DNA from: Chloroflexota bacterium
GTDB lineage: Bacteria > Chloroflexota > UBA11872 > VXNJ01
DNA length: 38,388 nucleotides
Assembly: GCA_009840625.1 (NCBI GenBank)
Contig: VXNJ01000011.1
Span: 1 to 38,388 of the forward strand
Direction: 5' to 3'
This document shows, piece after piece, positions 2,384 to 19,266 of the stretch. Positions within the stretch are counted from its first letter, which is position 1; each line of letters opens with the position of its first letter. Made by a program: the position numbers and the translations under genes. The notes below the pieces were generated by a model, which did no database searches, had not been told where the DNA came from, and worked only from the letters and a program-made list of their open reading frames with translations.

Positions 2384-2492
2384 AGTCACTATGAGCATTG
2401 GGAATTGAGCGGATTTGGAGGGCAGATCCGGACATGGCGAGTTCCCAATTTCAAAACTCAAATAGTCCCCAGAATTGCCGGAAACCAAATTC

Positions 2493-3698
2493 TCAGTGTT
2501 GGAGTTGGCCAAAACCTTGGACCGCGCCAGACTGCGGATTTAACTTTTCTAGGGCATCCACGAATTCGCCATCCACGACGAGCGCGTCCGAATCTATCAG
2601 TGAACTCAAGTAGTCCACTGCCGTTTTAATCTCGTGGTCAATCTCAAGCCGGTTGGATGAAAGTTGGCGCAATCGATTTTGCGCGCGATGGAATCGCAGG
2701 AATTGATTCTGGCCAAATACATCAATTTGTTGTTCGATAACGCGATCGAGCACTTGGCCGGCTTCGAAAATGGTGACGTTCAGCAGCATCGCTTCCTTTG
2801 CAGAAAGGTCCAATCTGCCTACAGGGGTTTTCTTGAAGAAGTACTGGTGTAAATTTTTGCGCTCATTTCGTGGCAAGTAGCCACAAAGTAGTTCAATGAT
2901 TCGACTGCTGGTGCCTGGATTCCACTCTGGCCTGCCAATTTGGCGCTCCAATTCCAAGCAGATTTGCACTACTTCTTCGTCGAAAACCTCTTTGAATTGG
3001 ATTTGTAATTGATCGAAATTCAACTGGCTTTCAGTTGAGCCTTCCCGGTAGGGTACACCTTCGACAATGGCTCGAGAGATTGCAAGTTCTAAGCACTCCT
3101 GAATTCGAGTTTCGACGGGTTTGAACCCCCGGCCCGCGAATTGCGGGTCGATCAGAATCGTTACCGCCGCATGCGTCATTTCCAGCATCACATCGATGTG
3201 GGTCGCCGGCAGTTTCTGAGTGCCTTCAATCAAGAGATAACGCCAATTCGTGTAACCGCTTCCAACGATTCCGAGGAAATCAATCAGCGATTTGGATTGA
3301 ATGTAGTCGTGCAAGTTGCGCATTGATTGAAACGCTGAGTCCATGATCGCTTGATCCGCACGAGGCAGTAAGTCAAAGATGAAACACACATCGTGTTGCT
3401 GCGCCTGTTTGGACACGACGTCAGACATTTTTTTGTGAATCTCGCGAGGCGGAATTGACTCCCTGACTGCCCACAAGAGCTTCAACGATTGCTCAAGCAG
3501 TGAATAACAATTCGGAACAAATCTCCAAGCTTGGAGCAACTCAAAGTCGACAGAAGCGTCTGCTCTCATTGCGGTTTCGTTCCAAAGGTCGTTGGTTAAG
3601 AAATATGCTTGGTGCAATCGAAATGCCGGTTGCCTGTAAATCTCAGTCAAGAACTTCAACCTTTTGGATCTCACCCATGCGTATGGGGGTCGAGTCAT
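2493..3698 (-). CDS. uncharacterised 401-aa protein, possibly HEPN-like
   Basis: I do not recognise a named family. The protein is soluble, mostly helical and has no signal peptide. The helix 'YSLLEQSLKLLWAVRE' (65-80), followed by a loop and 'SMRNLHDYI' (125-133), resembles the two core helices of HEPN domains. A second candidate RxxxxH motif, RLEIDH, lies at 350-355. HEPN proteins often act as RNases or nucleic-acid-responsive effectors in bacterial immunity, and the neighbouring ATPase/TOPRIM pair and helicase would fit that. This is inference from weak similarity. It converges on the DUF4276 gene, with about 110 bases between them, and has the same low-GC composition. Confidence 0.6.
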   Translation of the reverse strand: MTRPPYAWVRSKRLKFLTEIYRQPAFRLHQAYFLTNDLWNETAMRADASVDFELLQAWRFVPNCYSLLEQSLKLLWAVRESIPPREIHKKMSDVVSKQAQQHDVCFIFDLLPRADQAIMDSAFQSMRNLHDYIQSKSLIDFLGIVGSGYTNWRYLLIEGTQKLPATHIDVMLEMTHAAVTILIDPQFAGRGFKPVETRIQECLELAISRAIVEGVPYREGSTESQLNFDQLQIQFKEVFDEEVVQICLELERQIGRPEWNPGTSSRIIELLCGYLPRNERKNLHQYFFKKTPVGRLDLSAKEAMLLNVTIFEAGQVLDRVIEQQIDVFGQNQFLRFHRAQNRLRQLSSNRLEIDHEIKTAVDYLSSLIDSDALVVDGEFVDALEKLNPQSGAVQGFGQLQH

Positions 3699-4186
3699 CG
3701 CTGCTCGGATTTGTAGATTGCGAAGACTGACGCTCGCACCGGATCCGAATAAGACTGCTCAAGTCTGTCGCTCCCCGTGACCATTCGCCGGCAAAGGGTG
3801 ATGCTCGCCGAGCATGTCGCACCAACTGACCAGCAATAGCGTCAGTTAGCGCGTGTTTGCGATTCTTGTCTGCTGTTCGCAGCAGTTTGCAGTTCGAGTT
3901 CGCCCTCGACGGGACAGCCGCCGCGAAGGGTCATCGTTGCATCCTGCCATGTTGGCTCAATCCGGTGCCGACCGTGGTTGACCGCACCGAATTTCCGATG
4001 CACAAATGTGGATGGAGATTGTCTTATCCAAAATCGCAGAGATAGCCAATTGCATTTGAACAGTGGCTAGGTGAATTAAAGAATGTGGCCACGGCGGAGC
4101 ATTGATCCCGGAAACCTACAACATGGCAAATCAGTTTGTGCCGGTTCCTCGCCCGGGCAAACCTCAATTCGGACAAGTTCGGTTGC
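3699..4186. other. intergenic, no gene recognised
   Basis: This separates two minus-strand genes of the island. It holds a small inverted repeat (ATGCTC GCC GAGCAT near 3801-3815) and the upstream region of the 401-residue gene. A short plus-strand frame starting near 4123 looks peptide-like but has no family signature and runs into the antisense of the next gene. I see nothing else to support. Confidence 0.4.
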
Positions 4187-4969
4187 TCAATACAGGAAGG
4201 GGATCAGCGCGCACTCAACGTCGCGCACGTCGCTTAAGCAGCGGCTCAGTACTTTTGCTACAGGTTGGCCAGCATACCAACTGACCACATCAGCATCCTG
4301 CGGAGGCTGCCCTTCGCGTCCCCAAAAACTCAAATTCAAACGAATGCGCGGATCATACTCCTCCGGGAGATTTCGAAACCACCCAACCTCCTTGTCCCGT
4401 TCGAGCGGTCCGATGTGAATTCGACCTTCGATGCGAGCACTTTTGTCCGCTGTGATTGGAAGCTCGTGATTGTCAATTCCCGTCGGGACGACTGCGGCGA
4501 TATGCAAATGCCTGTGTTTATCCACATTGCTCAGGCGATTGAGGGACCAAAGTTCGAATCCCGATTCGGTTGGCCACCACGGTTGGAATTCGCGAATTAC
4601 GCGCTTTGCGCCGCTTGCGACACCTTGCAGGGCGCGACTTTCAATCTCGTCGAAGCGTTTCGCATTTCCCGTTATTGGGTACCTGTTTGCAAATGTAGGC
4701 TTCCGGCCGTTGGCCAAAACTAATTCCCACACGATGTGGTCCAAGCTGGATCGGAGATTGTGAACGATTTCACCAACTTTGACCGAAAACTCGGGGGGAG
4801 CCAATCCGGATTTGCCCGTGAATGTCCATGTACGGAGATAGCCCTCTCTAGATTCGTGAATCTCCTGATGCATTTCCCGCAATATGGCATCTACCGAAGC
4901 ATTTGTTTCTGATTGCAAACTTTCCGCTCGGTTGATCCTGGAGCGAATCCACTTCAATCGGGGATTCAT
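4187..4969 (-). CDS. hypothetical protein with HEPN-type RxxxxH motif
   Basis: 260 residues, soluble. The central segment 'VGEIVHNLRSSLDHIVWEL' (65-83) places R73 and H78 in an R-x4-H motif at the end of a long helix. This is characteristic of a widespread family of uncharacterised bacterial proteins with a HEPN-like core. A long helical N-terminus (residues 1-45) precedes it and a more beta-rich part (WTF at 48-50, FELW, then 'KHRHLHIAAV') follows. Whether it cuts RNA is unknown; the motif is necessary but not sufficient. It lies between the other HEPN-like gene and the helicase on the same strand, but gaps of several hundred bases argue for separate transcription. Confidence 0.7.
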   Translation of the reverse strand: MNPRLKWIRSRINRAESLQSETNASVDAILREMHQEIHESREGYLRTWTFTGKSGLAPPEFSVKVGEIVHNLRSSLDHIVWELVLANGRKPTFANRYPITGNAKRFDEIESRALQGVASGAKRVIREFQPWWPTESGFELWSLNRLSNVDKHRHLHIAAVVPTGIDNHELPITADKSARIEGRIHIGPLERDKEVGWFRNLPEEYDPRIRLNLSFWGREGQPPQDADVVSWYAGQPVAKVLSRCLSDVRDVECALIPFLY

Positions 4970-5307
4970 TTGCGGACTCTATTTCTTCAATTGCAAGCGG
5001 CCACGGTGCAAGGCATTTGACGCTGGATTCATTCTCGATGACGATTCACTCACAACATTGCGGTCAACGTTTGAAACAGTCATCCCATGTGTCAACCCAA
5101 GCTTGCGAATCGGATTGATGAGGGTGCCGCATCCCAAAAAACTCAAGTCTGTATTACTCTCAGAATCCGATTTCGCGCGTATCGCAACAATCGACGTCGG
5201 ATGCCACCTAACACGTCTTTGGTGATTGGCGGAATCCGATTGCATCGATCTCGCCGAAATTGCCCATGACCACAGCGTCGGCTTTTTTTAAGGCCGCAAA
5301 ACGCCTC
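4970..5307. other. intergenic, no gene recognised
   Basis: The spacer lies between the helicase stop and the HEPN-motif gene. A run of seven T with short flanking complements (CGGC...GCCG near 5279-5297) lies just past the helicase stop. It could be a poor intrinsic terminator in either direction, but the stem is too short to call. Nothing else is evident. Confidence 0.4.
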
Positions 5308-7248
5308 TTAATGTGAGTCCATTGCAGGGAGGATTTCAGGCAAATCGGTGCCACTCTTCACGCCGCCCAACGACTGGGGTAACAGTCGGCTGCGGGAGGT
5401 AGTGACCCACTTGACTCCTCTCTGAGTCGTGACTTGACTCACGCGGCCCATGTTTTGCATGACGTCTGTCAATTGAATTCGACGGGGCCAAGAGATGATC
5501 AGGTTGTCTCGCGCTCGAGTAATAGCAACATAGAGTAGACGCCTTTGTTCACCGGCCATGATTAAGTCGTCTTCGTCAAATCCAGGGATTAATTGGTCCG
5601 CGATCCCCGCGATGATGACGTTGTCAGCCTCTAATCCTTTGGCGCCGTGGAGGGTCATGATCCGCACGCGGGGCTCCTCGGATTGCGATTCGCGCAAGGG
5701 CGCGCGCGTCGCGATTCGATACCGGAGTGCGCCCATAACTCTCGCAAGGCTTTCGGAGCCTTGGTTCGCTAGCAATTCTTGAGCCGCGGCTCGAAGCTCG
5801 GCCAAGTCTCGCAACAGCCAACGTTGTTTTTCTTCATCGGGCTCTGTAGAGGCCAATGAGTCACAAAAGCACTCGTCAATAATCTCCTTCGACGACCGGC
5901 TCCTTTCGATTAGCTCGACAGCCCTCTTGGCTCGCTGAACGATGTGACTTTGTCCAGGACCGGATACCGCTATTGCCGCGCTTGCTATGCCGCGTATGAG
6001 CGCGTGGCCCCCGATTTCATTCGAAACGGACGAGTAAGCTCCCGCATTCCTCCGTAAAGCTTGTTCTGCTTTTGCGCCCTTGAACCCGAGATAAGCGCGG
6101 GCAGCCACGTGATCGTTCGCGTCCGCAAGTAGAGACGCTGTCGCGAACGCCTCCTGAGCGACCGGATGATCGAGCACCTGTTCCGCAAACGCGGTCGATG
6201 CACCTGGGCCAATAGCTTCTGCCAGTCGATAGCCGATGAATCGCCGGGGGACCAAAATCAAAAAAGACTTCTCTGCGTGGGCACGGACGTGAGCGGCTAA
6301 CCCTTCGATTTCTGCTTCCAGATCTTTCCACTGCACCGGGACCAAGAATCCCCTTTGCTCCCTAGTTGAAGTCATTGCTGGTCTTGTGCTCCCGGCCTCC
6401 GCCATCATCAAATTGGCAACCCGCAAAATCTCATCGCATGAACGCCAATTGGCGGTAAATGTCAAGTCGATGCACATGGGCCAAGACAAGTGGAAGTCCG
6501 CAATCCCTTCAGGGTGATTGAACCGAAACCCGTAAATGGACTGATCGTTGTCCCCCAATACCGTTAAGGAGCCGGTGCCAGACCAAACCAGCCGAACTAG
6601 CTCTTGTTCCGCCGCAGTGAGATCCTGATATTCATCGATGACTACGTGGTCGAACATCGCCGGGGGTATGTCTCGACATTCCATACCAACCACGCACAAG
6701 TGAACGACTTCTCCTATCAGCATCGCCCTATGTCGCTGCAACCAACGTCGCACTGCGCCATCAAACTTCGCATTTGCAAAATCTTCCCTTTGAGCTCTAC
6801 TGGCTTGGAGGAGGCGAAGAGCTTCACGTCGCTCGTAAATATTCCCAGTGAAAGCGCCACTCCCAATGTCATAAAGCAGCGAGTCTTCTTCGTAGCGAAG
6901 AAGGAACCTCAAGCGCATTCCTTGGCAAGCGTCCGGGTACTTGCGAAGAAATTCATATGCGAGGGAATGTAGGGTAGAGACTCTAATTTCATTGCCCAGC
7001 GCCTCTCGCAATCCCTGAGCGATGACTCTGGTAAAGGTCCCCGCAAACGCCCTGTCGGGCTCGACTTCGCGCTGTTGAATGAGTCGTTGGAGCCGCCTTT
7101 TGAGGCAGGTAGTCTTACCTGACCCTGGTCCAGCAATTACTCGCACTACGCTAGCGTCGGATTCAATCAGCGCCTTAGCGGCGCTGCCCGCGATGCCACG
7201 CAACCAGGGTGATCCGCTAACTTTGGTCGATTGCGATCCTATTGTCAT
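5308..7248 (-). CDS. UvrD/PcrA-like superfamily 1 DNA helicase
   Basis: ATP-dependent 3'-5' helicase of the UvrD/Rep class, 646 residues from the ATG at 7248. That start is chosen over TTG 7254 because an AGGG element sits about seven bases upstream. Numbered from the TTG, the motifs are motif I AGPGSGKTT (41-49), motif Ia-like 'GTFTRVIAQGLRE', motif II VIDEYQD (205-211), motif III GDNDQSIYGFR (234-244), 'TLHGAKGLEADNVI' near the C-terminal third, and motif VI 'LLYVAITRARDNL'. It is somewhat shorter than housekeeping UvrD/PcrA (about 720), which suggests a specialised version. GajB of Gabija is a UvrD-like helicase that works with an OLD ATPase-TOPRIM. A comparable functional link to the ATPase/DUF4276 pair here is possible but unproven, since the genes face opposite ways and are about 3 kb apart. 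Confidence 0.9.
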   Translation of the reverse strand: MTIGSQSTKVSGSPWLRGIAGSAAKALIESDASVVRVIAGPGSGKTTCLKRRLQRLIQQREVEPDRAFAGTFTRVIAQGLREALGNEIRVSTLHSLAYEFLRKYPDACQGMRLRFLLRYEEDSLLYDIGSGAFTGNIYERREALRLLQASRAQREDFANAKFDGAVRRWLQRHRAMLIGEVVHLCVVGMECRDIPPAMFDHVVIDEYQDLTAAEQELVRLVWSGTGSLTVLGDNDQSIYGFRFNHPEGIADFHLSWPMCIDLTFTANWRSCDEILRVANLMMAEAGSTRPAMTSTREQRGFLVPVQWKDLEAEIEGLAAHVRAHAEKSFLILVPRRFIGYRLAEAIGPGASTAFAEQVLDHPVAQEAFATASLLADANDHVAARAYLGFKGAKAEQALRRNAGAYSSVSNEIGGHALIRGIASAAIAVSGPGQSHIVQRAKRAVELIERSRSSKEIIDECFCDSLASTEPDEEKQRWLLRDLAELRAAAQELLANQGSESLARVMGALRYRIATRAPLRESQSEEPRVRIMTLHGAKGLEADNVIIAGIADQLIPGFDEDDLIMAGEQRRLLYVAITRARDNLIISWPRRIQLTDVMQNMGRVSQVTTQRGVKWVTTSRSRLLPQSLGGVKSGTDLPEILPAMDSH

Positions 7249-7625
7249 GTTCAACCCTGTGATTGGTTTTGTGCAGAACGGTTGCGATCAGTTGTCGGCG
7301 CAACGGTAATTTACGGGATCATGACGAAACTGAAATCGTCTTCCGCGGAATCACGGACCGATCGAATGATGGGCCTATACCGTGAAATAAACGCGCTTTT
7401 TGCAGGAGCGCGCATGGTCGGATGCGAAACGGGTTAGATCTTGAGCGAGCTATGCATTACAAGAGGGTTTCAACTTCATTGCGTGGAAAAGCGCATTCAT
7501 TCCCAATTCAGTGAGCCAATGCAGACACATGTGCGGGCAGTTCTAGTACTTTCGATAATCCGAATTAGTTAAAGTGCCACCTGGTATTGGTAAACCTGAG
7601 CTGACCAGAGGCCGTCGGATTGGAT
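7249..7625. other. intergenic between helicase and vapC
   Basis: No gene is supported. It carries the helicase upstream region, a modest hairpin (CGCGCT ... AGCGCG near 7399-7419) and the right copy of the 20-bp direct repeat. Just after that repeat lies AAAGTGCC, the inverse complement of the GGCACTTT that starts the left copy. Confidence 0.4.
7548..7567 (+). repeat. right copy of imperfect 20-bp direct repeat
   Basis: ACTTTCGATAATCCGAATTA, 18/20 identical to 492-511. The two copies enclose the ATPase, DUF4276, HEPN-like and helicase genes and leave VapBC outside. See the left copy for the statistical caveat. Confidence 0.3.
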
Positions 7626-8012
7626 TTACGCTGCCCGCACATCGGTGAGCGTGAAATCGGTGCCTTTGAACAATAGCGGTTCACGGGTAACGTCGGACAA
7701 CGCGTAAGCAAAGCAATCGCCGAAATTGAGCCCGGCGGCATGATTGCCTTTGCCGAATCTCCGCCAGGCCCGGCGCGCTACCTGCACATGGACTACAGTT
7801 ACTGCGACCAGCTCGATTGGCGCTTTCGTCACAAACAAGTCCAATTCGTAGCCGGCTTCCGCGCTTGATCGGGATTCGAGAACGATTGACGCTTCCAAGT
7901 AATTGGCAACCGACATGCGGCAAGTTTCCGCGTCCGCGATGGCGGAAACATATTTATCTGCATCGGATTCCGCGAAAAGTACCGCCAACAAGGCCGAAGT
8001 GTCGACGATCAC
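7626..8012 (-). CDS. vapC: VapC-type PIN-domain RNase toxin
   Basis: 128-residue PIN-domain protein with all four acidic active-site positions visible: D4 in 'MIVDTSALL', E40 in 'ANYLEAS', D99 in 'NFGDCFAYAL' and D119 in 'FKGTDF'. PIN toxins are Mg-dependent endoribonucleases that typically cut tRNA or rRNA and are held inactive by a co-expressed VapB. The GTG start overlaps the vapB stop (GTGA, four bases), which gives translational coupling in the usual antitoxin-first order. 'FGKGNHAAGLNFGDC' is the typical core of the Rv0624-like subgroup. The sequence appears intact. Confidence 0.92.
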   Translation of the reverse strand: MIVDTSALLAVLFAESDADKYVSAIADAETCRMSVANYLEASIVLESRSSAEAGYELDLFVTKAPIELVAVTVVHVQVARRAWRRFGKGNHAAGLNFGDCFAYALSDVTREPLLFKGTDFTLTDVRAA

Positions 8013-8266
8013 TCGGGTAATCCGCTGTCGCCATACAAGTAATCGCCGTGATCGGTTGCAGACGGACCGTCGCGCAGAAGTGATGAGCAGCGTTGTCCAA
8101 TCGCGGATAGCTCATGGGAGCGGGATTCGACGCTCAGTGCACGTCGTTCGCGCGCCAGCCTCTGCCTGATCGCGACCGTTATCGCGCCGGTCTTCGATTC
8201 ACCTGTCAGATGTGCTAGCTCCTCGACGAGTCGGCATGTTTCTTCATTCTTGATGTTCAGGCTCAA
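8009..8266 (-). CDS. vapB: VapB-type antitoxin
   Basis: About 85 residues beginning 'MSLNIKNEETCRLVEELAHLT', the usual start of Rv0623-like VapB antitoxins. The N-terminal part is expected to form a DNA-binding dimer and the C-terminal tail to wrap around VapC. I chose the TTG at 8266, because GGAG lies six bases upstream and because family members begin with M-A/S-L-N-I-K. The upstream TTG at 8278 would add four residues. It is coupled to vapC by a four-base overlap and preceded by a perfect inverted repeat that is probably its own operator. Confidence 0.88.
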   Translation of the reverse strand: MSLNIKNEETCRLVEELAHLTGESKTGAITVAIRQRLARERRALSVESRSHELSAIGQRCSSLLRDGPSATDHGDYLYGDSGLPE

Positions 8267-8278
8267 AAGGCTCTCCAA

Positions 8279-8307
8279 AGGTAGACCTTCTTACTACCAG
8301 TCTACCT
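8279..8307 (-). promoter_or_regulatory. probable VapBC operator (inverted repeat)
   Basis: The arms AGGTAGAC (8279-8286) and GTCTACCT (8300-8307) are perfect reverse complements separated by 13 bases, so the half-sites are 21 bp centre to centre, two helical turns. The element lies directly upstream of the vapB start. This is the expected geometry for a VapB/VapBC autorepression site. It is called from position and symmetry only. Confidence 0.65.
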
Positions 8308-8315
8308 GTTAAATG

Positions 8316-8335
8316 TCGATTCGGTTTCGAATCGA
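8316..8335. repeat. perfect 8-bp hairpin upstream of vapB
   Basis: TCGATTCG GTTT CGAATCGA forms a perfect stem with a four-base loop, 9 bases beyond the operator repeat. It could be a second operator half-pair, a terminator remnant or a chance palindrome. There is no T-run next to it. Confidence 0.35.
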
Positions 8336-8835
8336 TTTACAAGTCCCCAATCAATGAGATTTGCCTCAACGCGAGTCGACCAGGCTCCGAGTGTCAAACG
8401 GTCTGGAAACGGCGACCGCCATCGAGGAATAGGGATCCAGATGAGCGGTCGCAATCGGTCAATTCCCCGCGGTTCTGCCGACCTCCTCCCGCAGCTAGGT
8501 GGATGCTTAGGAGCGTTAAATCGCCACTCTCATCCCAGAAGCCACTAGTCTGCGGCCAACCGGAAATACCCACCAACGGCCTCGAGAAGCAACCGGCCCC
8601 GGCAAACAGATCCAAAGCAATGCAACGGTGCTGATGCCGAAGCCGAAATAGGACCGGCAAGCGGTACACGAGTGGCGTCGTGGTCATTGCCCTCATGGAA
8701 ATGCCTTGATGCAGTGTTTCAGAATTCCATTTGCGAGCTGAAGGCTTTGCGATCAAATGCAGGCCCGTTTCACGCCTCGGTCAGGATGTCCCTCGCGATG
8801 CACTCCGGATAGGCCCCTCTAGCGAGCGCGGCACG
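8336..8835. other. probably decayed intergenic DNA
   Basis: I found no gene I can support. A 120-codon open frame on the minus strand (8394-8756) has no recognisable domain and an erratic composition. An 8-bp inverted repeat (GCGACCGC 8412-8419 / GCGGTCGC 8445-8452) is present. Because the next stretch holds a clearly broken gene, this may be further remnant sequence. Confidence 0.4.
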
Positions 8836-9016
8836 CTAATCCATGAGGATCAGTGCCTTCCAGATGCCCCACACGCGTCGTCGCGACTCAGTAGTTGCGG
8901 GCGTTCTGAAGTTGCTCCGTGACCCACTGCCACGAAATCGGCTCGAAGGGGTAGTCCTAGATGCTGAAGCCGAAGCTTTCCGGCATGTGTGGTCGTTCCG
9001 GTTCGGGGACGTGCAT
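8836..9016 (-). pseudogene. remnant of a pyridoxamine-5'-phosphate-oxidase-fold gene
   Basis: Read on the minus strand from ATG 9016, the frame gives 'MHVPEPERPHMPESFGFSI', then a TAG, then 'DYPFEPISWQWVTEQLQNA' and 'RNY', a TGA where the family has Trp, then 'VATTR'. A short out-of-frame 'WGIWKALILMD' matches the family's 'PVWGIW' strand after a small deletion. This order (RPHMP, then SW, then RNYW-ATTRPDGRPH, then VWG-W) is the N-terminal half of the flavin/F420-binding PPOX-like family. Two in-frame stops, a deletion and a frameshift show that it is dead. The family identity is from memory of the motif and is fairly strong; the C-terminal half is missing. Confidence 0.6.
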
Positions 9017-9020
9017 GGCG

Positions 9021-9422
9021 CTACTCAGGTTCGGGCGCAAACGGGTCGTAGGTACCGAGATGCCAGTGGTTGCCTTCGTAGTCGGCGACGGTGAAGGCAT
9101 GTGAGTCGTAGTCGGTGTCGGTCAGCGGTAGGATCACTGTTGCGCCAGCAGCTACTGCACGGGCAAAAACCTCGTCGACCTGCTCGGCCGACTCGGCAGT
9201 CATGCTGATCGAGCCGTGGTGCTGCGGCAGGCTGTGGACGTCGTCTGAGGCGTCGCCCAGCATGACAATCGAGCCGCGCCAGGCGAGTTGCGCGTGCTCG
9301 ACGCGTCCCTCGTCGTTGCGCACGACGAAGTGCTCGGTAATGCCGAACGCCTCTTGCAACCAGCGAATCGCTTCGTTGGCGTCGCCGTAGCGGAGCACGG
9401 GAACCACTGTTTGGTTCGGCAT
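9021..9422 (-). CDS. VOC family (glyoxalase/bleomycin-resistance fold) protein
   Basis: 133 residues from the ATG at 9422, which has GGAG nine bases upstream; an earlier in-frame start at 9452 lacks one. It has the PhnB/YciA-like vicinal oxygen chelate layout: 'VVPVLRYGDANEAIRWLQEAF' with a conserved opening strand and helix, 'HAQLAWRGSIVMLGD', then 'AVAAGATVILPLTDTDYDSHAFTVADYEGNHW', where the D-x-G-N-H/x-W end is typical. One such domain is present, so it would work as a dimer. Substrate unknown; members of this subgroup are rarely characterised. It lies alone, with a broken gene downstream. Confidence 0.85.
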   Translation of the reverse strand: MPNQTVVPVLRYGDANEAIRWLQEAFGITEHFVVRNDEGRVEHAQLAWRGSIVMLGDASDDVHSLPQHHGSISMTAESAEQVDEVFARAVAAGATVILPLTDTDYDSHAFTVADYEGNHWHLGTYDPFAPEPE

Positions 9423-9507
9423 TGAATTCTCCGTAGGTAGGCAGTGGTTCACTGGGAATCTTACGCAGGCCCGCGGCGGTGTGAACAGGAGCCGAGCAGG
9501 CGAAAGC

Positions 9508-9615
9508 CTAGTAGACGTAGCCTATCGGCTGGCCATTCTGCATCGGCTTGTCGGCGAGCTGGGGAACGAGGGTGTCGGGGCCGGAGCGATGGATGACTAC
9601 CGTTGGCCGAAGCAT
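9508..9615 (-). CDS. possible 35-aa peptide gene
   Basis: A short frame beginning 'MLRPTVVIHRSGPDTLVPQL' and ending 'GYVYY'-like before TAG. The support is the translation signal: AAAGGAGAT lies just upstream of the ATG at 9615, a near-perfect Shine-Dalgarno about nine bases away and much better than most in this window. I recognise no family. It could instead be the truncated start of a lost gene, since adjacent DNA contains a pseudogene. Confidence 0.4.
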   Translation of the reverse strand: MLRPTVVIHRSGPDTLVPQLADKPMQNGQPIGYVY

Positions 9616-9814
9616 CGTCTAAATCTCCTTTGATCAACAACTGAACCGTCGGACTCTTATTCGCCGAGACTTATCGCGACCTACCAAGTCCGCAGAGCCC
9701 AAATGTCGGTTTGAACCGCCCGCATGATCCCGGGTCGGTTGGCACGGCTACACTTCCGGGTGTTTAGGCGGACGAAGTCGCTCCGGCAATACAACCACAA
9801 GTTGGGGAAATTGG

Positions 9815-11092
9815 ATGTTTAGAGCAATCCAGCCGTATGGGCGAGTCGGGTACGGACTCTGGGCCATAGCCGCAGCCGTCGCGATGATCCTTTTGATGTC
9901 CGCCTGCGACGAATTGGGATCCGAGCAGGGATTGGGTGAAGTAAGGGTCGAAAACGGCGAGGCGATCCACATCCGGGGCCTCGCGGTCCTGGCAACACAA
10001 GCCGGAACGCCGTCTCCCACATTTAGAGCAATGATGATGGCGGTAGAAGACTTTGGCCCGATCAAAGGAAGCCCGGTTTCAATCGGGGCCGGAATTGATT
10101 CCCGTTGCACCGCCGATGGCGGAACCGCGGCCGCCGATACGGTAGTCGGGGACCCGCGCGTTGTCGCCGTCATCGGCCCGTCTTGTTCGGTTGCCGTGGC
10201 CCAGGCGGCGCCGATCCTCAGCGCCGCAGGGATGACCATCATCGCCCCTTCCGCGACTTCCCCGTCGCTAACGTCAGATTTGGCCGGAATAGCTGGAGAA
10301 AACCACAATCCAGGGTTCTTCCGCGTTGCCAGCAACGACCTGTACGAGGGTCGTGCGGCCGCACGTTTCGCGTTCGAAGAATTGGGATTGCGCAATGTGG
10401 CCGCAATCGACGACGGCGATCCCTATACCTCCGGGCTCACCGCAACTTTCGCGGGCGCCTTTATGGAATTGGGTGGCGCGGTCGAAGTTTCTTCGATCGC
10501 CAAGGGAGAAACCGAATTGCAGGCCCTGCTCGGCCAGATAGCCGGCGGCGGCCCCGATGGTCTTTACTTTCCGCTGTTCGCTCTGGAGGGCGAAGCGGTC
10601 ATCCGGCAGTCGCGCGCAACCCCCGGATTGGAAAACGTAACCCTCATCGGCGGAGCTTCGCTTCTGGAACCAGACATCCTGTCATTACCGGAGGCTGCGG
10701 GCCTCTATCTGCCTGGACCGGACCTGGACTATGGCGAAAACGCCAACCAGGTGACGGGCAAAAGCAGCCGACAACTGCGGACCGACTACGAAAACCGTTA
10801 CGGCGACCAGCCTGCATCTGTCTACCTGGAGCACGCCTACGACGCGACCACGTTGCTACTGGCGACGATCGAGTCAGTGGCCGTCGCTGATGGGGAGGAT
10901 CTGGTCATCGACCGGGCCGAGCTGCGTAAGGCGTTGGCGGCCACAAGCGAATTCGGGGGCATCATCGGCACCCTGTCGTGCGACGAGTTTGGCGATTGCG
11001 GCACCGGCGCAGTCCAAATCGCTCACAACCCCGATTCAGGCGCCGGGGCCGACATCCGCGAGTTGCCAATCGTTTACCGATTTGCACCATAA
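9815..11092 (+). CDS. branched-chain amino acid-type ABC substrate-binding lipoprotein
   Basis: 425 residues, exported and lipid-anchored: a hydrophobic signal (about 14-30) ends in the lipobox LMSAC with C31. The mature part is a type I periplasmic binding fold of the LivJ/LivK (Peripla_BP_6) class: 'VVAVIGPSCSVAVAQAAPILSAAG', 'FRVASNDLYEGRAAARFAFEELG', 'DGDPYTSGLTATFAGAFMELGG', 'LYFPLFALEGEAVIRQSR', and a C-terminal 'VYLEHAYDATTLLLATIE'. The ligand cannot be told from sequence; the fold binds amino acids, amides and other small polar molecules. GGGGA lies upstream of the ATG. No permease or ATPase gene is adjacent, so it is either an orphan or serves a transporter encoded elsewhere. Confidence 0.88.
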   Translation: MFRAIQPYGRVGYGLWAIAAAVAMILLMSACDELGSEQGLGEVRVENGEAIHIRGLAVLATQAGTPSPTFRAMMMAVEDFGPIKGSPVSIGAGIDSRCTADGGTAAADTVVGDPRVVAVIGPSCSVAVAQAAPILSAAGMTIIAPSATSPSLTSDLAGIAGENHNPGFFRVASNDLYEGRAAARFAFEELGLRNVAAIDDGDPYTSGLTATFAGAFMELGGAVEVSSIAKGETELQALLGQIAGGGPDGLYFPLFALEGEAVIRQSRATPGLENVTLIGGASLLEPDILSLPEAAGLYLPGPDLDYGENANQVTGKSSRQLRTDYENRYGDQPASVYLEHAYDATTLLLATIESVAVADGEDLVIDRAELRKALAATSEFGGIIGTLSCDEFGDCGTGAVQIAHNPDSGAGADIRELPIVYRFAP

Positions 11093-11284: not shown

Positions 11285-13891
11285 TTGGGAAAATGGTGCT
11301 TGCATCCGCCTGCAAGCGCCATCGGATACCGTGCATTGGCAAATCAAAGCCTCCTTGTTCCAACAAGGGTCTTCGCAAAGGCGCTGATTGTTGCGCTGGC
11401 AACCGTCGTCGCGGCGTTGGCCGTACTTTTCACCTATGACGCCTCGTCGGCCCAGGAAGAACCGCGCTGTGCTGCAACCGCGCTTGGCCAGCTTCCGGCC
11501 CAGACTGAGGGCGGATTGCAATTTGCCGGATCCTGGAGCGCCCAGGATTGCGAATCTGAATACCGCCCCGGCATTGGCGCCCAGTATTTCGAATTCGAAG
11601 TAGTTGAAAGCGGCCGGATCCGAATCGAGCTGACTTCGAATTCCGCCGATCCCTTTCTGTACCTGACTGCAAGCGACGGGCTGCGTATAGCCGACGACGA
11701 TGACAGCGGCGCGCTCCTCAACGCCCGAATCGAACGCGATTTTGCCCCAGGCACGTATCAGATAGAAGCCACCACGGTGGGCGCGCGGACGCCGGTGGGG
11801 GCGGATTTCAACATCTCCATCTATTACGTGGAAGGCTGTGAAATAACTCCGCTGGGCGCGCTGACCGAAGACTCGCCGCTCCGTGCCATGGGGTCGTGGG
11901 CACTAGATACCTGCGGATCGCGCATCGTCGTGACCCACCCGGCCCATAGCTACCTTTTCGAATTGCCCCAGACCGGGCGCGTGCGCATCGATTTGACTTC
12001 AGACAACGGCGATCCGGTCGTATCGCTGGCCACCGTCGACGGCGTGGCAATCGGGGCAAATGACGACGGCGGCGTGGGCCTGAATTCGCGAATCGACCAG
12101 TACCTTCCGGCCGGTGCCTACATCATCGAAGCCACGACTTACAGCCAGGGCGGCCTGCAACCGGCGGCATCAGATTTCGAACTGAGCATCCAGGTCGTAA
12201 ACGAACAACTGGAGCAGCTGGATCCGAATCCCAAAGTTGAATTCCTGGCAGCGCCCGACCAGGTCGTCAGCGGGGATCCGTTCACCGTGCATTTCCGCGT
12301 CGGCAACCATGGCGGCGGCGACCTATACGGCAATGCCGCGAGCTACCTGGTCCTGGTCCGCGGTCCGGAAAACCGGCACTGGGGCAACCCCATCCCGGTC
12401 AGCGAATCGAGCTGGGCACCCGGATCCTCCTACCACACCGGCAATCCGGCGGCCAACTCCACCAGCACCACGCTGGAAGGATTGGCGTCAGTCGACCTGC
12501 GTCTGGAGGAACCGGGACGCTCCTGGGTCCTGGTCGCGCTTTACGCCTTGAACGAAGACGATCGCGGCCTTTGGTTTCATGCGACCTGGAAGCACGTACA
12601 CGTACTTGAATCGGCCGAATTCGGTCCAACGTCAGTCAGGCTAAACGGTCGAACGCTTTCGGTGGCGGCAACCGCCGAATCCGACGGGACGGTTTCGACC
12701 ACCGTCAGCGACGTGTCGGACCGCGAACAGTCGGTCGATTCGACCGAGGAACTGCAGGCAATCTACTCGGCCGGCGTCCGGCGATTGCTCCTTGACGACC
12801 TATTTGCCCGTGAGACCATCACTGCCCTCGAGGAATCGACCGCCGGCACCTTCCCGGGCGTATTCGGTCCCGGCCTGAGCGCCTTGACTCCTCAGAGCGG
12901 TTCCTCCGTGGCGCGATTCGCCGACCGGTACATCGCCGACGTCTCAGAGTCCGAGCTGGCCGCCGCCAGCGAGGCCGGTTTCATGATCGACCCGGGCTTG
13001 GTCGAGCAGCAGATTCTGAGCACCGCCGATAACGCCCGGCGGGAATACGAAACCCTGGCCGAAGGCTGGCGCCGACTGCGATCGCGGGTCGGCTCCGGAG
13101 GGGCGATCACGTATGCCGAGGCCCTGTCGCTGCATTCGCAGTTGCGGTACGCCGAGAGCATCCTTGACTCCGCAATCCGCGCCGGCGAGCTGGTCTCGTC
13201 GGCACGCGCAGCCGAATCGGGCTGGGAAAGCGACTCGGTGCAAACCCAGCTCGCCGAATTCGCGGCCGACGCCGGGTGCCGGGGGTCGGCGGGCCGATTT
13301 TCGGCGGCGCTCACTTCTGCCGCCCCGAGGCTGGCCGCCACCCACCTGGCGCTCGATTCGCAGCTGCGCGCGGCTTTGCCGTTTTTTGGCACCGCTACCG
13401 AACACGCCATTTGCGCAGCGCGGGAAATCGATGGTGCCAACGACCGGTTCTTCAACCTGCTGGGAATCGATTCGCCCGACCCTTCCCAGTTGCCGGGATT
13501 CCAGTACGCCCCCGCAAACTTGGATTCGGAACCGGCAGCGCACACGTTGCGGATCCTGGCAAGGCTGGACGCCGACGGCCGGATCGAACATGCGGTCGAG
13601 CTTGCCGACGGCCGCATCATCCTGCCGGACCGCCGGTTCCTGGCGGCGGGAGCGGCTCCGGGAGGGACCTACCACAGCAGCGCGGTTGAAATATCGGGTG
13701 GGCCGATCGGTGCCATTCGGTCGCAAATCGACTCCATGGGCCGAATAGTCGTTTCGTTCCTGGGTTCGGACGGGAACCAAGTAGTTCCGGACAACCGGAT
13801 AATCCCGCCCAACGCAACGGTCGGGGCCTGGCTACGCTCCACCCGGATCGAAGTACCGGCGGCGGTGCCCTTGCTGGCAGCGGTCGGTTAG
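11285..13891 (+). CDS. large secreted protein with duplicated PPC-like domains
   Basis: Up to 868 residues with a signal peptide (about 28-56, ending near 'ASSAQ'). Two tandem copies of a pre-peptidase C-terminal-like beta domain follow (about 61-165 and 177-305). Each opens with a Cys and 'LG-L', has a second Cys after 'GSW', and contains 'GRIRIELTSNSADPFLYL' or its counterpart and 'GTYQIEATT'. Residues 315-445 form an Ig-like/CARDB-like region ('PDQVVSGDPFTVHFRVGNHG'). The rest is helical, then ends in two short 'DGRI...PD-R' beta elements. I know no function; binding at the cell surface is an inference from the domains. The TTG at 11285 is uncertain (TTG 11336 is an alternative), as no good ribosome-binding site is visible. 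It converges on the next gene with a four-base overlap. Confidence 0.75.
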   Translation: MGKWCLHPPASAIGYRALANQSLLVPTRVFAKALIVALATVVAALAVLFTYDASSAQEEPRCAATALGQLPAQTEGGLQFAGSWSAQDCESEYRPGIGAQYFEFEVVESGRIRIELTSNSADPFLYLTASDGLRIADDDDSGALLNARIERDFAPGTYQIEATTVGARTPVGADFNISIYYVEGCEITPLGALTEDSPLRAMGSWALDTCGSRIVVTHPAHSYLFELPQTGRVRIDLTSDNGDPVVSLATVDGVAIGANDDGGVGLNSRIDQYLPAGAYIIEATTYSQGGLQPAASDFELSIQVVNEQLEQLDPNPKVEFLAAPDQVVSGDPFTVHFRVGNHGGGDLYGNAASYLVLVRGPENRHWGNPIPVSESSWAPGSSYHTGNPAANSTSTTLEGLASVDLRLEEPGRSWVLVALYALNEDDRGLWFHATWKHVHVLESAEFGPTSVRLNGRTLSVAATAESDGTVSTTVSDVSDREQSVDSTEELQAIYSAGVRRLLLDDLFARETITALEESTAGTFPGVFGPGLSALTPQSGSSVARFADRYIADVSESELAAASEAGFMIDPGLVEQQILSTADNARREYETLAEGWRRLRSRVGSGGAITYAEALSLHSQLRYAESILDSAIRAGELVSSARAAESGWESDSVQTQLAEFAADAGCRGSAGRFSAALTSAAPRLAATHLALDSQLRAALPFFGTATEHAICAAREIDGANDRFFNLLGIDSPDPSQLPGFQYAPANLDSEPAAHTLRILARLDADGRIEHAVELADGRIILPDRRFLAAGAAPGGTYHSSAVEISGGPIGAIRSQIDSMGRIVVSFLGSDGNQVVPDNRIIPPNATVGAWLRSTRIEVPAAVPLLAAVG

Positions 13892-14551: not shown

Positions 14552-15898
14552 TCACCACACCTTCGGGATGAAAAGGCGGGGCACCGTCTTGGTGTAGCGG
14601 TCCCAGTCGGATCCATATTTTTTGCGGCAGCGGAGGGTGTCGCGACGCGCCCGGTGCAGGATCATCAAAACGAAAAAGGTCACATAGAAGTAGGGCAAAA
14701 AGTGGCCGAATCCGCAGATCAGGCCCCAAGACAACGCCATGATCACGTCGGCGGTGTAGTGAATCTTGCGAGCGTAGCGCCACCAACCGTCCACCAGCAG
14801 AGGGGAACCGCAGGCAGTTTCCAGATAGCGCGGGTTTTCCAACTTGGCCCAGGGCAGTTGCGGGAAGGCCCTGCGTTTCACGTAGGAACCGTTCAACTGC
14901 ATGCGGAAGTAATTTCGCTGGCCCTGGGAGGTATCCCAGACGTAGTAGGCGCCGAACAGCATGACGAAACACGCCACCGTGATCGCAACCGGTGGTTCGA
15001 AATCCGGGCGCGCGGCCACGTACATCGAGTTGAAGCAATAGACGAAGGGGACGCCTGCCAGGTTCCAGAAGACCAGCATCCAGCCCCATTTTTCGTGAAA
15101 AATGTCCCAGGTCGTGGGGATGCACTCCTCACCCTTCATGCAGGCGTTGGCGTACAGAAAGTGAGCGACCAACATGAAGATCATGGGGGTGCTCAGCGTG
15201 CCGAACTCGGAGTACTGATAGGCGGCGGCGTTGGCCGTAAGCAGGAAAAGGGTGAGCCAGGAAACCCGTACTTCCGCCCACATCTTCAGGTCCAGCCGCC
15301 CGATCCGGGGGTTAAGCCAGGCCCCCATGAAGAAATCGTAGATGTGATTGCCGGTCATCCGTTCGGCGTTGCCGGAGAGTTTGGCGCCCAGGTAAACGGC
15401 GAGCGCGACCGCGTTGCCGGTGATCATCGCCACGACCATGAACGATCCGAACTGCTCGTAGATCGTCTGCAGCGGAAAGACGTCCGAAATATGCAGCACG
15501 ACCACCAATGCCAAGGTCAACCACCAGGCCGAAATCGCGTTGACGCGGTAGGCAAGACGCTGGCCCCCGCGTGAAGGGATCGGGTATCCCTTCACCCGCA
15601 GTCCGGGCAGATAGGCCGCCAGCAAACCCTGGGCGACCAGGAATGCCCAGTAGATGGCGAACGTGGACCAGGACGGGGACGCGTGGGTGGAAATCTGCTC
15701 CCAAATCCGCGCCAGATAGGGGCCGATGTCTCCGACTCCCGAAGGAAAGAACAGCGCGCCGTCGTAAAACCGCCAGGCAATCCACAGGTAAAGCAGCAGC
15801 GCGTGCGAGAGCGTGACGATGGCCACCACTCCCGGCGCGCCTCCGAATTCGCGCGCGGTCAGGCGACCTTCGGTGCCGGTTGAAGCGTCATTGAGCAC
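14552..15898 (-). CDS. ERG4-type C24(28) sterol reductase
   Basis: About 448 residues, polytopic (8 or more helices). The family is ERG4/ERG24. The ERG4 branch, NADPH-dependent reduction of the sterol side-chain delta24(28) bond, is indicated by 'NHIYDFFMGAWLNPRI', 'LDLKMWAEVRVSW', 'WGWMLVFWNLAGVPFVYCFN', 'DGWWRYARKIHYTAD' and 'CRKKYGSDWDRY' with the end 'LFIPKVW'. These correspond, from memory, to yeast Erg4 motifs including ARK-HYTAD and its LFIP end, rather than to the ARH-NY-GD of DHCR7/ERG24. I prefer GTG 15898, with GGGGAG nine bases before it; TTG 15928 would add ten residues. It lies in the same direction behind the sterol methyltransferase. The presumed substrate is a 24-methylene sterol made by that enzyme. 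An intact, full-length ERG4 homologue in a bacterial context is unusual. Confidence 0.85.
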   Translation of the reverse strand: MLNDASTGTEGRLTAREFGGAPGVVAIVTLSHALLLYLWIAWRFYDGALFFPSGVGDIGPYLARIWEQISTHASPSWSTFAIYWAFLVAQGLLAAYLPGLRVKGYPIPSRGGQRLAYRVNAISAWWLTLALVVVLHISDVFPLQTIYEQFGSFMVVAMITGNAVALAVYLGAKLSGNAERMTGNHIYDFFMGAWLNPRIGRLDLKMWAEVRVSWLTLFLLTANAAAYQYSEFGTLSTPMIFMLVAHFLYANACMKGEECIPTTWDIFHEKWGWMLVFWNLAGVPFVYCFNSMYVAARPDFEPPVAITVACFVMLFGAYYVWDTSQGQRNYFRMQLNGSYVKRRAFPQLPWAKLENPRYLETACGSPLLVDGWWRYARKIHYTADVIMALSWGLICGFGHFLPYFYVTFFVLMILHRARRDTLRCRKKYGSDWDRYTKTVPRLFIPKVW

Positions 15899-16071
15899 GG
15901 TCTTAGTCTCCCCTGACGTATCGCTCAATCAATCGCCCCGCCGAGCAAAGGGGGTGCGCCCCGAGAGGCAATCCGCGCGCCATCGCCCCTGGCTTGGCCT
16001 CAGGCCGTCGTCCGCCGCCTGCCAACGGTCCGGAACACTGTCGATCGGCGCAGACGAACCCAATGCGGGGA

Positions 16072-17094
16072 TTAGGACTTGCGCGCTTTGAAGTAGAACA
16101 TCGGCGTGAAGATGCCGAGTCGGCCGGCCGCGGTCAGGCTGTCCGCCGCCAGGTTCAGCACTTCCGTGACCTCCACCGTGCCCTTCGGGACCATGCCCAT
16201 GGATTCGAGGGCCCTGATTACCCGGGACGTTATGAACCGGCCGATCGAAGTTCGCGGCAGGCTCTTGAGCGTGATGTCGCGACCCTCGAACGCGCGGTAC
16301 CAGGGCGTTTGGGGATCGGCCTCCTCGGCAAGATCTCGCGACTCAACCACCTCGAATCCAACCGTTTGCAACGCGTTCAACACGTGATCAAAGGAACCGA
16401 CATCGGGCAGGCTGTTGCCCTCTTCGATTCCCTGTTTGAGCCTTTGGTGTTCCGGGTCGGAGTATTCAAAGGCGGAAGTCATGCACCACTCGTACCCGCC
16501 GAAGCACCCGCCCGGTTTAAGTACCCGCCAGATCTCGGCGAAGGCTCCCGCCTTGTCCGGCGCGTGGGCGGTGGCCTCGATCTGAAAGACCGCATCGAAA
16601 CTCTCGTCCGCGGCCGGGATGTCCATGAAATCGCCAAGCAGGACCGAGGTCTGCTGATCAAGTCCGGCCGCCCGGTTGTAGCCTTCACACTTCTCCAGCT
16701 GATAGGCATTGTTGTTCAGCCCCACAACGTGGGCGCCGGAAGCCTTGGCGATAACCCGCATCGGGCCGCCGACTCCGCAGCCCACGTCGAGCACGCGCAT
16801 GCCGGGCCGCAGACCGACGGACTGGGACAAGAACAGTTCGTGGCGGATAAGCGATTCCTTGAACGACTCTCCCCGGACCCGCGGAGCAAAGTGAAACGAT
16901 TGGCCCCAACCGAATTCATAGAAATCGGTAACCAGGTCGTAGTAGCGGTTGACCATGTCCATGTAGCGCTGCTTGCGCAGGGCGGCGTCGCCGCCCGCAG
17001 TCTGGTCGTGAAAGCTGCGGTACTCGTGCGCGGTGGCTTCGGTTTCAGCCCCGGGGATGGCCTTGGAAACGGGGTTGTGAAAGCGTTCGGGCAT
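16072..17094 (-). CDS. sterol 24-C-methyltransferase (ERG6/SMT type)
   Basis: 340 residues, SAM-dependent. All four regions diagnostic of sterol methyltransferases are present: region I 'YEFGWGQSFHFA' (59-70, sterol pocket), region II 'VLDVGCGVGGP' (101-111, SAM), region III 'IEATAHAP' (172-179) and region IV 'YEWCMT' (201-206). Also present are 'MVNRYYDLVTDFYE', 'VGLNNNAYQ' and a C-terminal sterol-methyltransferase domain ending 'FTPMFYFKARKS', as in yeast Erg6. The reaction moves a methyl from SAM to C24 of a delta24 sterol, leaving a 24(28)-methylene group. It starts 25 bases after the Rieske gene stop, so the two are probably co-transcribed; the ERG4-type reductase, which acts on the product, is next. 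Plant SMT2-like double methylation cannot be judged by eye. Not a plain UbiE/Coq5 type, because region I is conserved. Confidence 0.9.
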   Translation of the reverse strand: MPERFHNPVSKAIPGAETEATAHEYRSFHDQTAGGDAALRKQRYMDMVNRYYDLVTDFYEFGWGQSFHFAPRVRGESFKESLIRHELFLSQSVGLRPGMRVLDVGCGVGGPMRVIAKASGAHVVGLNNNAYQLEKCEGYNRAAGLDQQTSVLLGDFMDIPAADESFDAVFQIEATAHAPDKAGAFAEIWRVLKPGGCFGGYEWCMTSAFEYSDPEHQRLKQGIEEGNSLPDVGSFDHVLNALQTVGFEVVESRDLAEEADPQTPWYRAFEGRDITLKSLPRTSIGRFITSRVIRALESMGMVPKGTVEVTEVLNLAADSLTAAGRLGIFTPMFYFKARKS

Positions 17095-17119
17095 GGGACC
17101 TAGCCCCGAACCCTTGGGC

Positions 17120-18184
17120 CTATTCGGCGTAGAACTGCCTGTACCAGCGCCGCATGTTGTGCACCGGTCCGTCCGACCGCGAAAGTAGCGGTTTCGACCG
17201 GTAAATCTTGTTTTCCCAAATTTCCACGTCCCTGCCCCACTGCGAGACCCAGTTGCCCACGACGTAGCTGGCCAGCAGGCGCGGGATTCGCTTTTGCGAA
17301 AACCAGGAAAAATGAACCTGCTGTTTCAGCGGCGCCACGGGCGTGTGAGTTTGAAACATTGTCATCTGGCCGATGTCGCCGATTTCGAAATCAAACTGCA
17401 CGATGCTGGCGGGACCGTGAAAGATCACCTCGGCTGCGGCCCCCGCCCGCGGCATCGGACGACCGAATATCTCCACGTAGCTGCGGTCGCGGAAGTACCC
17501 GCGGTGGGAAAGGGCATCGTCGGTTGCCCAGCTCGTTTGATGATGGATCTTCACGAACGGGATGCGCAGCCTGGTCCAGGGCAGGTGCATCACGTCGTGG
17601 ATTTCGCCGAAATGCTGGAAGTCGACGGCGTTTTCGGCAAATTCGATGATGTGCATGTCGACTTCGCCGCCGGCATGCCGACCGCGAAAGATGAGCTCGC
17701 CGCTGTCGATGCTCGGCTGCGTTGGGAGTCGGTAGAGGACGCGGTCCGGGGCGTGCTCGGCATGGTAGATCACGATCATCCCGTAGTAGTCCTTGACCTC
17801 CCAACTGGTATGCCTGGCGGACGGCAGCTTGTCATTGGTTGGAATGGAGCGCACTCTGCCGGCACCATCCAGCTGCCAGCCGTGGAACGGGCACCGCAAC
17901 AGGTCGCCATCGACCGAACCGTCGGCCAGGTTCGCCCCCATGTGCGGGCAGAACGCCTCGATCGCGTGGATGCTGCCGTCGTTTCCGCTTCGGAAGAGCG
18001 CAATCTGTTTGCCCAGGCATTCAACGTACTTGACCTGGCCGGGCTTGATTTCCGCCGAGCCGGCGATTCGGTACCAGCCGTCCGGAAAAGGGGGAGGATA
18101 GGAGTCCTGGCGAACGCCAGGCGAAGGTCCCGGCTGCGACGATCGCCGCCTGGATGAAAAGCGCCCTGCCAAACGATGCCACAT
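17120..18184 (-). CDS. Rieske sterol/steroid oxygenase (DAF-36/KshA-like)
   Basis: 354 residues. Rieske 2Fe-2S ligands are C79 and H81 ('FCPHMGANL'), then C98 and H101 ('CPFHGWQLD'). The mononuclear iron site is 'ENAVDFQHFGEIH' (184-196; D188, H191, H196) with D319 in 'WGRDVEIWENK'. The end, 'LSRSDGPVHNMRRWYRQFY', is shared by 3-ketosteroid 9-alpha-hydroxylases and cholesterol 7-desaturases (DAF-36/Neverland). With ERG6 and ERG4 homologues next to it, delta7 desaturation or another sterol ring oxidation (including C4 demethylation as by SdmA) is likelier than KshA-type catabolism; this is inference. The N-terminus is odd. GGAG directly abuts the ATG, and a GTG two bases further (18182) opens another frame encoding a membrane helix ('ALFIQAAIVAAGTFAW') with better third-position GC, so a single indel may have separated an anchor from the enzyme. 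Confidence 0.85.
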   Translation of the reverse strand: MWHRLAGRFSSRRRSSQPGPSPGVRQDSYPPPFPDGWYRIAGSAEIKPGQVKYVECLGKQIALFRSGNDGSIHAIEAFCPHMGANLADGSVDGDLLRCPFHGWQLDGAGRVRSIPTNDKLPSARHTSWEVKDYYGMIVIYHAEHAPDRVLYRLPTQPSIDSGELIFRGRHAGGEVDMHIIEFAENAVDFQHFGEIHDVMHLPWTRLRIPFVKIHHQTSWATDDALSHRGYFRDRSYVEIFGRPMPRAGAAAEVIFHGPASIVQFDFEIGDIGQMTMFQTHTPVAPLKQQVHFSWFSQKRIPRLLASYVVGNWVSQWGRDVEIWENKIYRSKPLLSRSDGPVHNMRRWYRQFYAE

Positions 18185-18705: not shown

Positions 18706-19266
18706 ATGCTCAAGCAGTTGGCACCGCGCGACCTTCAGCCGATACCCGCCTTGGCCTGCGCGCTGATCGTGGCGCTCGCCGTGTTCGGGTGGACCGAAAG
18801 ATCGGAGATCGTCGATCCTGACGGTCAGGGTGTCCCCTACCTGCCCTGGAAACTCTGGCAGATCGCTCCGCTGGTGATGGGAATTGGGGGCGTTTGGTGG
18901 ATGTGGCTGAGCACGCGACAGGTTCCCTGGGTGCGCAGCCTGGCGCTGGGCGTGCTTGCGTTCGTGGTTTTCGGTAATGCCTACACCGACTTGTTCGGCG
19001 ATCACTGGGCAGCAGTCTGGCGAACCGTGAACCCCATCTTCATCGGTTCATCATCGGTCGCCGCAGTAACCCTGTGGCGCTGCGGCACACCGCTTTGCCG
19101 AACCGCCGCGGTGCTGTCGGCGGGCCTGGGCGTCTTGCTTTTTGCCAACGGTTATTTCATCAATTACGGAACCCTCTGGGACGCGCTCGATCCATTGCGA
19201 ATGATCACTGCGATGGCCTGGGCGGCCGGTGCGGCCGGGGTCAACGCTTACCGGGCGGGCGGCTGA
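18706..19266 (+). CDS. hypothetical integral membrane protein
   Basis: 186 residues with about five or six membrane segments: 'ALACALIVALAVFGW', 'LWQIAPLVMGIGGVWWMWL', 'SLALGVLAFVVFGNAY', 'IFIGSSSVAAVTLW', 'TAAVLSAGLGVLLFANGYF' and 'MITAMAWAAGAAG'. No family recognised. It is divergent from the sterol cluster, sharing its upstream region, and precedes the prenyltransferase gene by about 330 bases. A weak GGGAA lies before the ATG. Confidence 0.7.
   Translation: MLKQLAPRDLQPIPALACALIVALAVFGWTERSEIVDPDGQGVPYLPWKLWQIAPLVMGIGGVWWMWLSTRQVPWVRSLALGVLAFVVFGNAYTDLFGDHWAAVWRTVNPIFIGSSSVAAVTLWRCGTPLCRTAAVLSAGLGVLLFANGYFINYGTLWDALDPLRMITAMAWAAGAAGVNAYRAGG

Follow-up and report, generated by a model that had tools for sequence, protein, structure and literature searches.

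A candidate operon for sterol side-chain remodelling in a Chloroflexota bacterium

Introduction

Sterols alkylated at C24, and the fossil steranes derived from them, are read as markers of eukaryotes. The products of sterol C24-methyltransferases (SMTs) retain a double bond in the side chain. Here we describe a three-gene locus in a 38,388-nucleotide stretch of DNA (hereafter the window) from a Chloroflexota bacterium (assembly GCA_009840625.1, contig VXNJ01000011.1). The locus encodes a Rieske oxygenase, an SMT of the ERG6 type and a sterol reductase of the ERG4 type, and it probably remodels the side chain of sterols taken up by the bacterium.

In 2023 bacterial SMTs were shown to methylate desmosterol in vitro, together with the meaning of this activity for biomarkers (Brown et al., PMC10070321). 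A reading of the window from its sequence alone (hereafter the sequence-only reading) had proposed the locus as a bacterial source of 24-alkyl sterols; the underlying enzyme assignments hold, and such a source is not new in kind in view of the 2023 study. Homologues of ERG4 and DHCR24 are known in sterol-making bacteria (PMC4919349), and sterol reductases also occur in bacteria that do not produce sterols (PMC9666466; PMC5418226). Among the latter, CBU1206 of Coxiella burnetii is described, in the account of Gilk et al. (2010) given in PMC5418226, as a functional delta24 sterol reductase that complements yeast erg4.

Results

Organization of the locus

The three genes are located on the minus strand and are transcribed in the order Rieske [2Fe-2S] sterol/steroid oxygenase with a KshA_C catalytic domain (18184-17120; 354 amino acids), SMT (17094-16072; 340 amino acids) and ERG4-type C24(28)-reductase, a membrane protein (15928-14552; 458 amino acids, TTG start). 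The gap between the first two is 25 bases, and that between the SMT and the reductase 143 bases; the open reading frames thus have the positions, common direction and close spacing that the sequence-only reading had reported. The Pfam scores of all three products are far above the curated cut-offs, on which grounds chance reading frames were rejected.

The sterol C24-methyltransferase

The product of the middle gene matched Sterol_MT_C (PF08498) with 74.9 bits (cut-off 21.7) and Methyltransf_11 with 75.4 bits in Pfam, the C-terminal sterol domain following a class I methyltransferase domain, and it is 42% identical over 331 amino acids to a provisional yeast ERG6 sequence. Of 16 ERG6 positions checked in the YEYGWG-SFHF region, the S-adenosylmethionine loop and the IEATxHAP and YEWxMT motifs, 15 are kept, including (in the numbering of that yeast protein) Y81, E82, H90, E108, D125, C128, D189, E195, H199, E209, E224 and D276, while D152 is replaced by A. 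In the tree, the protein was placed among the SMTs and was split from RebM and MitM at 100/100. The nearest proteins by tree path were SMTs of marine Myxococcota (54% identity), and the window SMT fell outside both SMT clades typical of its order. The UbiE and MenG models yielded 27-39 bits versus cut-offs of 158-420, and the UbiE-like grouping that had been named as a possible source of error was not observed. On the basis of the Pfam matches, the UbiE/MenG scores and the tree, UbiE-like, tocopherol-type and natural-product methyltransferases were rejected as identities. By its domain, residues and phylogeny, the protein is a true SMT, far from the UbiE-type models, in agreement with the earlier ERG6-type assignment.

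A second SMT is encoded elsewhere in the genome (L082:10041-11078, on contig C9). This protein and its kin constitute a clade in which Y81, E82 and E108 are replaced and Sterol_MT_C is kept, and which may act on a substrate other than the usual one.

The ERG4-type reductase

The reductase matched the ERG4_ERG24 profile (PF01222) with 421 bits over its full length (profile positions 3-432 of 432), and the Pfam profile search gave no match to the ICMT or NnrU families, either of which had been considered a possible confusion. The closest solved structures are delta14-sterol reductases (4QUV and 9L5R), at an identity of just 33-35%. A tree was built from the window protein, its bacterial relatives, 4QUV and 9L5R (both from the structure-search output), and yeast ERG4 and human DHCR7, the last two being provisional sequences that serve as leads only. 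In this tree the window protein, yeast ERG4 and the remaining bacterial ERG4-type proteins formed one clade at 100/100, from which the delta14 and delta7 reductases were separate. Moreover, the bacterial ERG4-type proteins share 30 invariant positions with residues that never appear in the delta14/delta7 set, and the provisional yeast ERG4 has the same residue at 18 of these. The tree and the diagnostic positions ruled out a delta14 or delta7 reductase (ERG24/MaSR1, DHCR7), and they support the assignment of the protein to the ERG4 C24(28) type.

Reductases that are 70-76% identical to the window protein were detected in Myxococcota, Gemmatimonadota, Nitrospinota, Gammaproteobacteria, an alphaproteobacterial metagenome-assembled genome (MAG) from a sponge and, within the class of the window genome, two Chloroflexota. 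The next closest, at 62-63% identity, belong to environmental Coxiellaceae, a figure that refers to these proteins and not to CBU1206 itself.

The Rieske oxygenase

The first gene product carries a Rieske domain (83.7 bits) and a KshA_C domain (79.3 bits), with both iron motifs, C-x-H-x16-C-x2-H and E-x3-D-x2-H-x4-H, intact (ENAVDFQHFGEIH), in agreement with the call of a Rieske sterol/steroid oxygenase made from the sequence alone. The corresponding motifs of the sterol C7-desaturases Neverland and DAF-36 are C-x-H-x16-17-C-x2-H and E/D-x3-D-x2-H-x4-H (PMC7609953). Both are present in the window protein, with E at the start of the second motif, but KshA meets them too, so that they are not decisive. 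The model of the 4beta-methylsterol monooxygenase SdmA (NCBIfam NF052579) scored 73 bits against a cut-off of 600, over the Rieske part only, and this identity was rejected; the SdmA-type protein in the steroid cluster of the sponge MAG Spongia_Bin9 (L141) scored 402 bits on the same model.

The closest kin of the window protein, and the only near ones found, are five proteins of marine Myxococcota (42-46% identity), with which it forms a clade at 100/99. The genes for all five adjoin an SMT gene in the same direction (L145, L150, L153, L152 and L143), and in three of these loci (L145, L150 and L153) the SMT and Rieske genes overlap by 4 bases. The order is SMT-Rieske in Myxococcota versus Rieske-SMT in the window; the pairing has thus outlasted a rearrangement, which speaks for a shared pathway. 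In two of the five loci, both from marine Myxococcota (L145:1-3569 and L153:256-3313), the pair is followed by a gene for a FAD_binding_4 protein, which we take to resemble DHCR24. The genomes that carry this gene also encode an ERG4-type reductase, and hence two different candidate side-chain reductases.

The relationship to KshA, a 3-ketosteroid 9alpha-hydroxylase, raises another explanation, in which the Rieske enzyme would attack a steroid destined for degradation, while the SMT and the reductase would modify or protect sterols incidentally, in a context of sterol breakdown or detoxification. The KshA_C domain is consistent with this, the closest solved structures are of KshA (4QDF and 4QDC), and the Rieske clade joins KshA as its sister at 90/93, on long branches. 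However, the identity to KshA is just 25-26%, the nearest kin are linked in Myxococcota to SMT, which is an anabolic side-chain gene, and the window revealed no genes for degradation. Furthermore, methylation of the side chain hinders, rather than helps, breakdown of a cholesterol-type side chain. We therefore regard degradation as a very unlikely role for the locus.

Recurrence in other bacteria

Among 21 other bacterial genomes found through their ERG4-type reductase, 12 also contain an SMT. In Spongia_Bin9 (L073/L141) the ERG4-type gene is divergently adjacent to the SMT gene, and the pair is part of a cluster that includes an oxidosqualene cyclase, a P450, the SdmA-type Rieske protein and a delta14-type reductase. 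No SMT was detected in the three Coxiellaceae genomes searched, nor, among 150 relatives searched, in any Chloroflexota genome outside the class. The recurrence of SMT with this Rieske protein and with this reductase in other phyla argues that the three genes represent a recurrent sterol side-chain module. The joint function of SMT and reductase, proposed originally from their adjacency, is likewise supported by phylogeny, by the diagnostic residues and by the mutual recurrence of the two genes in other phyla.

Squalene, cyclases and other sterol-type genes in the genome

The sequence-only reading had envisaged a self-contained route to 24-methyl sterols and had called for a search of the genome for the enzymes that form the skeleton. 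Profile searches of the genome, which is 2.27 Mb in size and 96.6% complete, revealed neither squalene epoxidase (PF08491) nor an oxidosqualene or squalene-hopene cyclase (PF13243), and the notion of a self-contained route was not sustained. Two adjacent squalene-synthase-family genes (HpnC/HpnD-like) are present on contig C18 (L139), with no cyclase among their neighbours; where relatives have their hopene cyclase, near these genes, sequence inspection indicated a flavoprotein, an IspH-like and a Dxs-like protein. The cyclases of the relatives scored 377-456 bits and carry the hopene-type DVDDTA motif where it was read, versus 167-189 bits for presumed oxidosqualene cyclases, and not one of the roughly 20 relatives from this order gave a score of the latter type. 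With the relatives' cyclases being of the hopene type, SMTs and sterol reductases occur across the order in the absence of a sterol cyclase. With the sterol-skeleton enzymes missing, the operon apparently acts on sterols from other organisms.

These data also bear on whether the organism could make its own sterols, the cyclase and the epoxidase being located in an assembly gap or belonging to an unrecognised family. The squalene-synthase-family genes would suit such a route, the SMT/ERG4-type pair of Spongia_Bin9 lies beside an oxidosqualene cyclase, and sponge symbionts of 10 phyla, including Dehalococcoidia (Chloroflexota), possess clusters of oxidosqualene cyclase, CYP51 and ERG24, often with SMT (PMC9531527). 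Nevertheless, given the absence of both profiles from a nearly complete genome and the hopene-type scores of its relatives, we consider de novo synthesis improbable.

A further alternative has both enzymes, the SMT-type one and the reductase, working on a polycyclic lipid other than a sterol, for example a hopanoid or a different isoprenoid. Production of squalene-derived lipids is likely in this order, squalene-hopene cyclases being present in relatives; the sterol substrates of both enzymes are assigned from sequence; and the other SMT clade of the order has diverged at the three positions noted above. The window SMT itself, however, retains nearly all of the ERG6 residues checked, the reductase keeps the ERG4-specific positions, and the window genome contains no hopene cyclase, which together make this alternative remote.

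In addition to the second SMT, the genome encodes a second KshA_C Rieske protein, two further ERG4/ERG24-family reductases, a GPP34-P450 fusion and a transporter of the MMPL family that bears a sterol-sensing-type domain. These additional sterol-type genes, combined with the missing cyclase, fit the uptake and remodelling of foreign sterols. The two further reductases, of about 380 amino acids each, are encoded in tandem on contig C1 (31632-34026; L027:7629-10107), an arrangement that is also found in the same order. They share 31-33% identity with the delta14 reductase 4QUV and belong to a lineage that lacks oxidosqualene cyclase. A separate locus at 279-289 kb of contig C1 (L140:9239-17588) comprises the KshA_C Rieske protein, the fusion of GPP34 (the Golgi phosphoprotein 3 domain) with a cytochrome P450, an FAD amine-oxidase-like protein and the MMPL transporter. 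This type of locus is conserved in the order and in sponge-associated Gammaproteobacteria and Gemmatimonadota (L076, L083, L087, L146 and L147), with an AcrB-type RND pump in place of the MMPL transporter in L146 and L147. The conserved set includes the second-clade SMT, which in the window genome sits elsewhere, on C9. From its gene content it looks like a locus for sterol uptake and remodelling, in which the GPP34-P450 fusion is an odd component.

Proposed pathway

In the remodelling pathway that we favour, the starting sterols would be imported, whether from the environment or from a host, perhaps a sponge. The SMT, with S-adenosylmethionine as the methyl donor, would methylate C24 of a delta24 sterol resembling desmosterol or zymosterol and yield a 24(28)-methylene sterol, and the ERG4-type reductase would then use NADPH to reduce the 24(28) double bond, leaving a saturated 24-methyl (ergostane-type) side chain. 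For these two steps, family membership and published precedents (PMC10070321, PMC5418226) make the assigned reactions the most likely ones. The Rieske enzyme would oxidise or desaturate this sterol as well, probably within its rings; its reaction is a guess, the leading candidate being a C7 desaturation of the Neverland/DAF-36 kind. The enzyme activities, their substrates, uptake from host or environment and the Rieske reaction are what we infer for the locus.

Several observations weigh against remodelling of imported sterols. The genome is a draft, and a cyclase cluster could sit in a gap. The branch of the window SMT is long and its position within the SMTs is not settled by the tree. In G027 and G035, which belong to the class of the window genome, the ERG4-type gene occurs in genomes without SMT, and the sponge association of the window genome is drawn from its relatives only. 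Finally, 2 of 10 sponge-symbiont and 2 of 14 environmental SMTs gave no product in vitro (PMC10070321), so that an SMT sequence is no guarantee of activity.

Genomic setting of the operon

The operon is flanked by a divergent gene upstream (18706-19266, plus strand) and by a convergent gene downstream (11285-13891, plus strand), and the three genes therefore constitute an isolated unit by position. The contig is 50.4 kb long, and the window covers its first 38.4 kb. The composition of the operon lies at the 33rd percentile among the genome's own 3.7-kb windows and is thus typical of the genome, which makes mis-binning of this stretch unlikely. Similarly, contamination of the bin as the source of the operon was rejected, since the tetranucleotides from about 11 kb onward, the operon included, resemble the rest of the genome, foreign composition being confined to the first 10-12 kb of the contig. 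The uppS gene located 1.4 kb upstream of the operon is one of two copies, of which the other lies on contig C8; it is 36-43% identical to all relatives and uninformative on contamination.

The foreign-looking island itself (window positions 1-11000; G+C content 0.51-0.59) has a tetranucleotide pattern unlike that of the genome. It contains a candidate defence pair resembling HEC-01A/HEC-01B (582-2383, plus strand), a UvrD-type helicase that resembles GajB (5308-7254, minus strand) and a PIN-domain toxin-antitoxin-like pair (7626-8278, minus strand).

Discussion

Bacterial SMTs already weaken the reading of 24-alkyl sterols as eukaryote markers, and with a partner of the ERG4 type bacteria would gain the saturated 24-methyl side chain found in eukaryotes. 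If the proposed pathway is correct, 24-methyl sterols need not be of eukaryotic origin alone. The presence of the operon in a lineage without a sterol cyclase suggests an ability of bacteria to rewrite sterols made by other organisms, so that searches based solely on oxidosqualene cyclase would miss these bacteria. The repeated pairing of SMT with the Rieske gene also points to an uncharacterised family of Rieske proteins as likely sterol enzymes. A bolder proposal would be that the SMT, the ERG4-type reductase and a new Rieske desaturase form a cross-phylum module for finishing sterols, by which bacteria without sterol cyclases convert host or dietary sterols to 24-methyl and possibly delta5,7 (ergosterol-like) forms, such that bacteria would account for some of the 24-methyl sterols of sponges and some of the ergostane signals in rocks. 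We offer this as speculation and consider it rather unlikely.

In the literature searched, we found no report of ERG4 next to SMT in bacteria. The tight SMT-ERG4-Rieske unit, its recurrence across phyla, the SMT-linked Rieske family and the cyclase-free Chloroflexota carrier were likewise not found there, and appear to be new.

The closest described systems share parts of this arrangement. The SMTs of Brown et al., from sponge symbionts and from marine and freshwater MAGs, belong to the same enzyme family, with the same consequence for 24-alkyl steranes, and some of their genomes, such as the Chlamydiae MAG, also lack other sterol biosynthesis genes; 13 of their 24 SMTs, however, occur with an oxidosqualene cyclase, which is absent from the window genome, and the main text makes no mention of ERG4, Rieske proteins or Chloroflexota (PMC10070321). 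The steroid clusters of Ircinia symbionts (CSGs; Kelly et al. 2022) are likewise found in sponge bacteria of many phyla, with flanking SMT1/ERG6 and evidence of horizontal transfer, but their core of ERG24, CYP51 and oxidosqualene cyclase is devoted to skeleton formation, whereas the window operon has none of these genes and adds the ERG4-type gene (PMC9531527). Spongia_Bin9 shows the Ircinia layout, the ERG4-type gene being placed beside its SMT gene. CBU1206, as described in PMC5418226, parallels the window reductase as a sterol reductase of a non-producing bacterium; unlike the window protein, the Coxiellaceae reductase is not in an operon with SMT. KshA and Neverland have the Rieske and KshA_C architecture and iron motifs in common with the window Rieske protein. 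In fungi, ERG6 and ERG4 carry out the same two linked side-chain reactions, in that case on endogenous sterols and with no Rieske partner.

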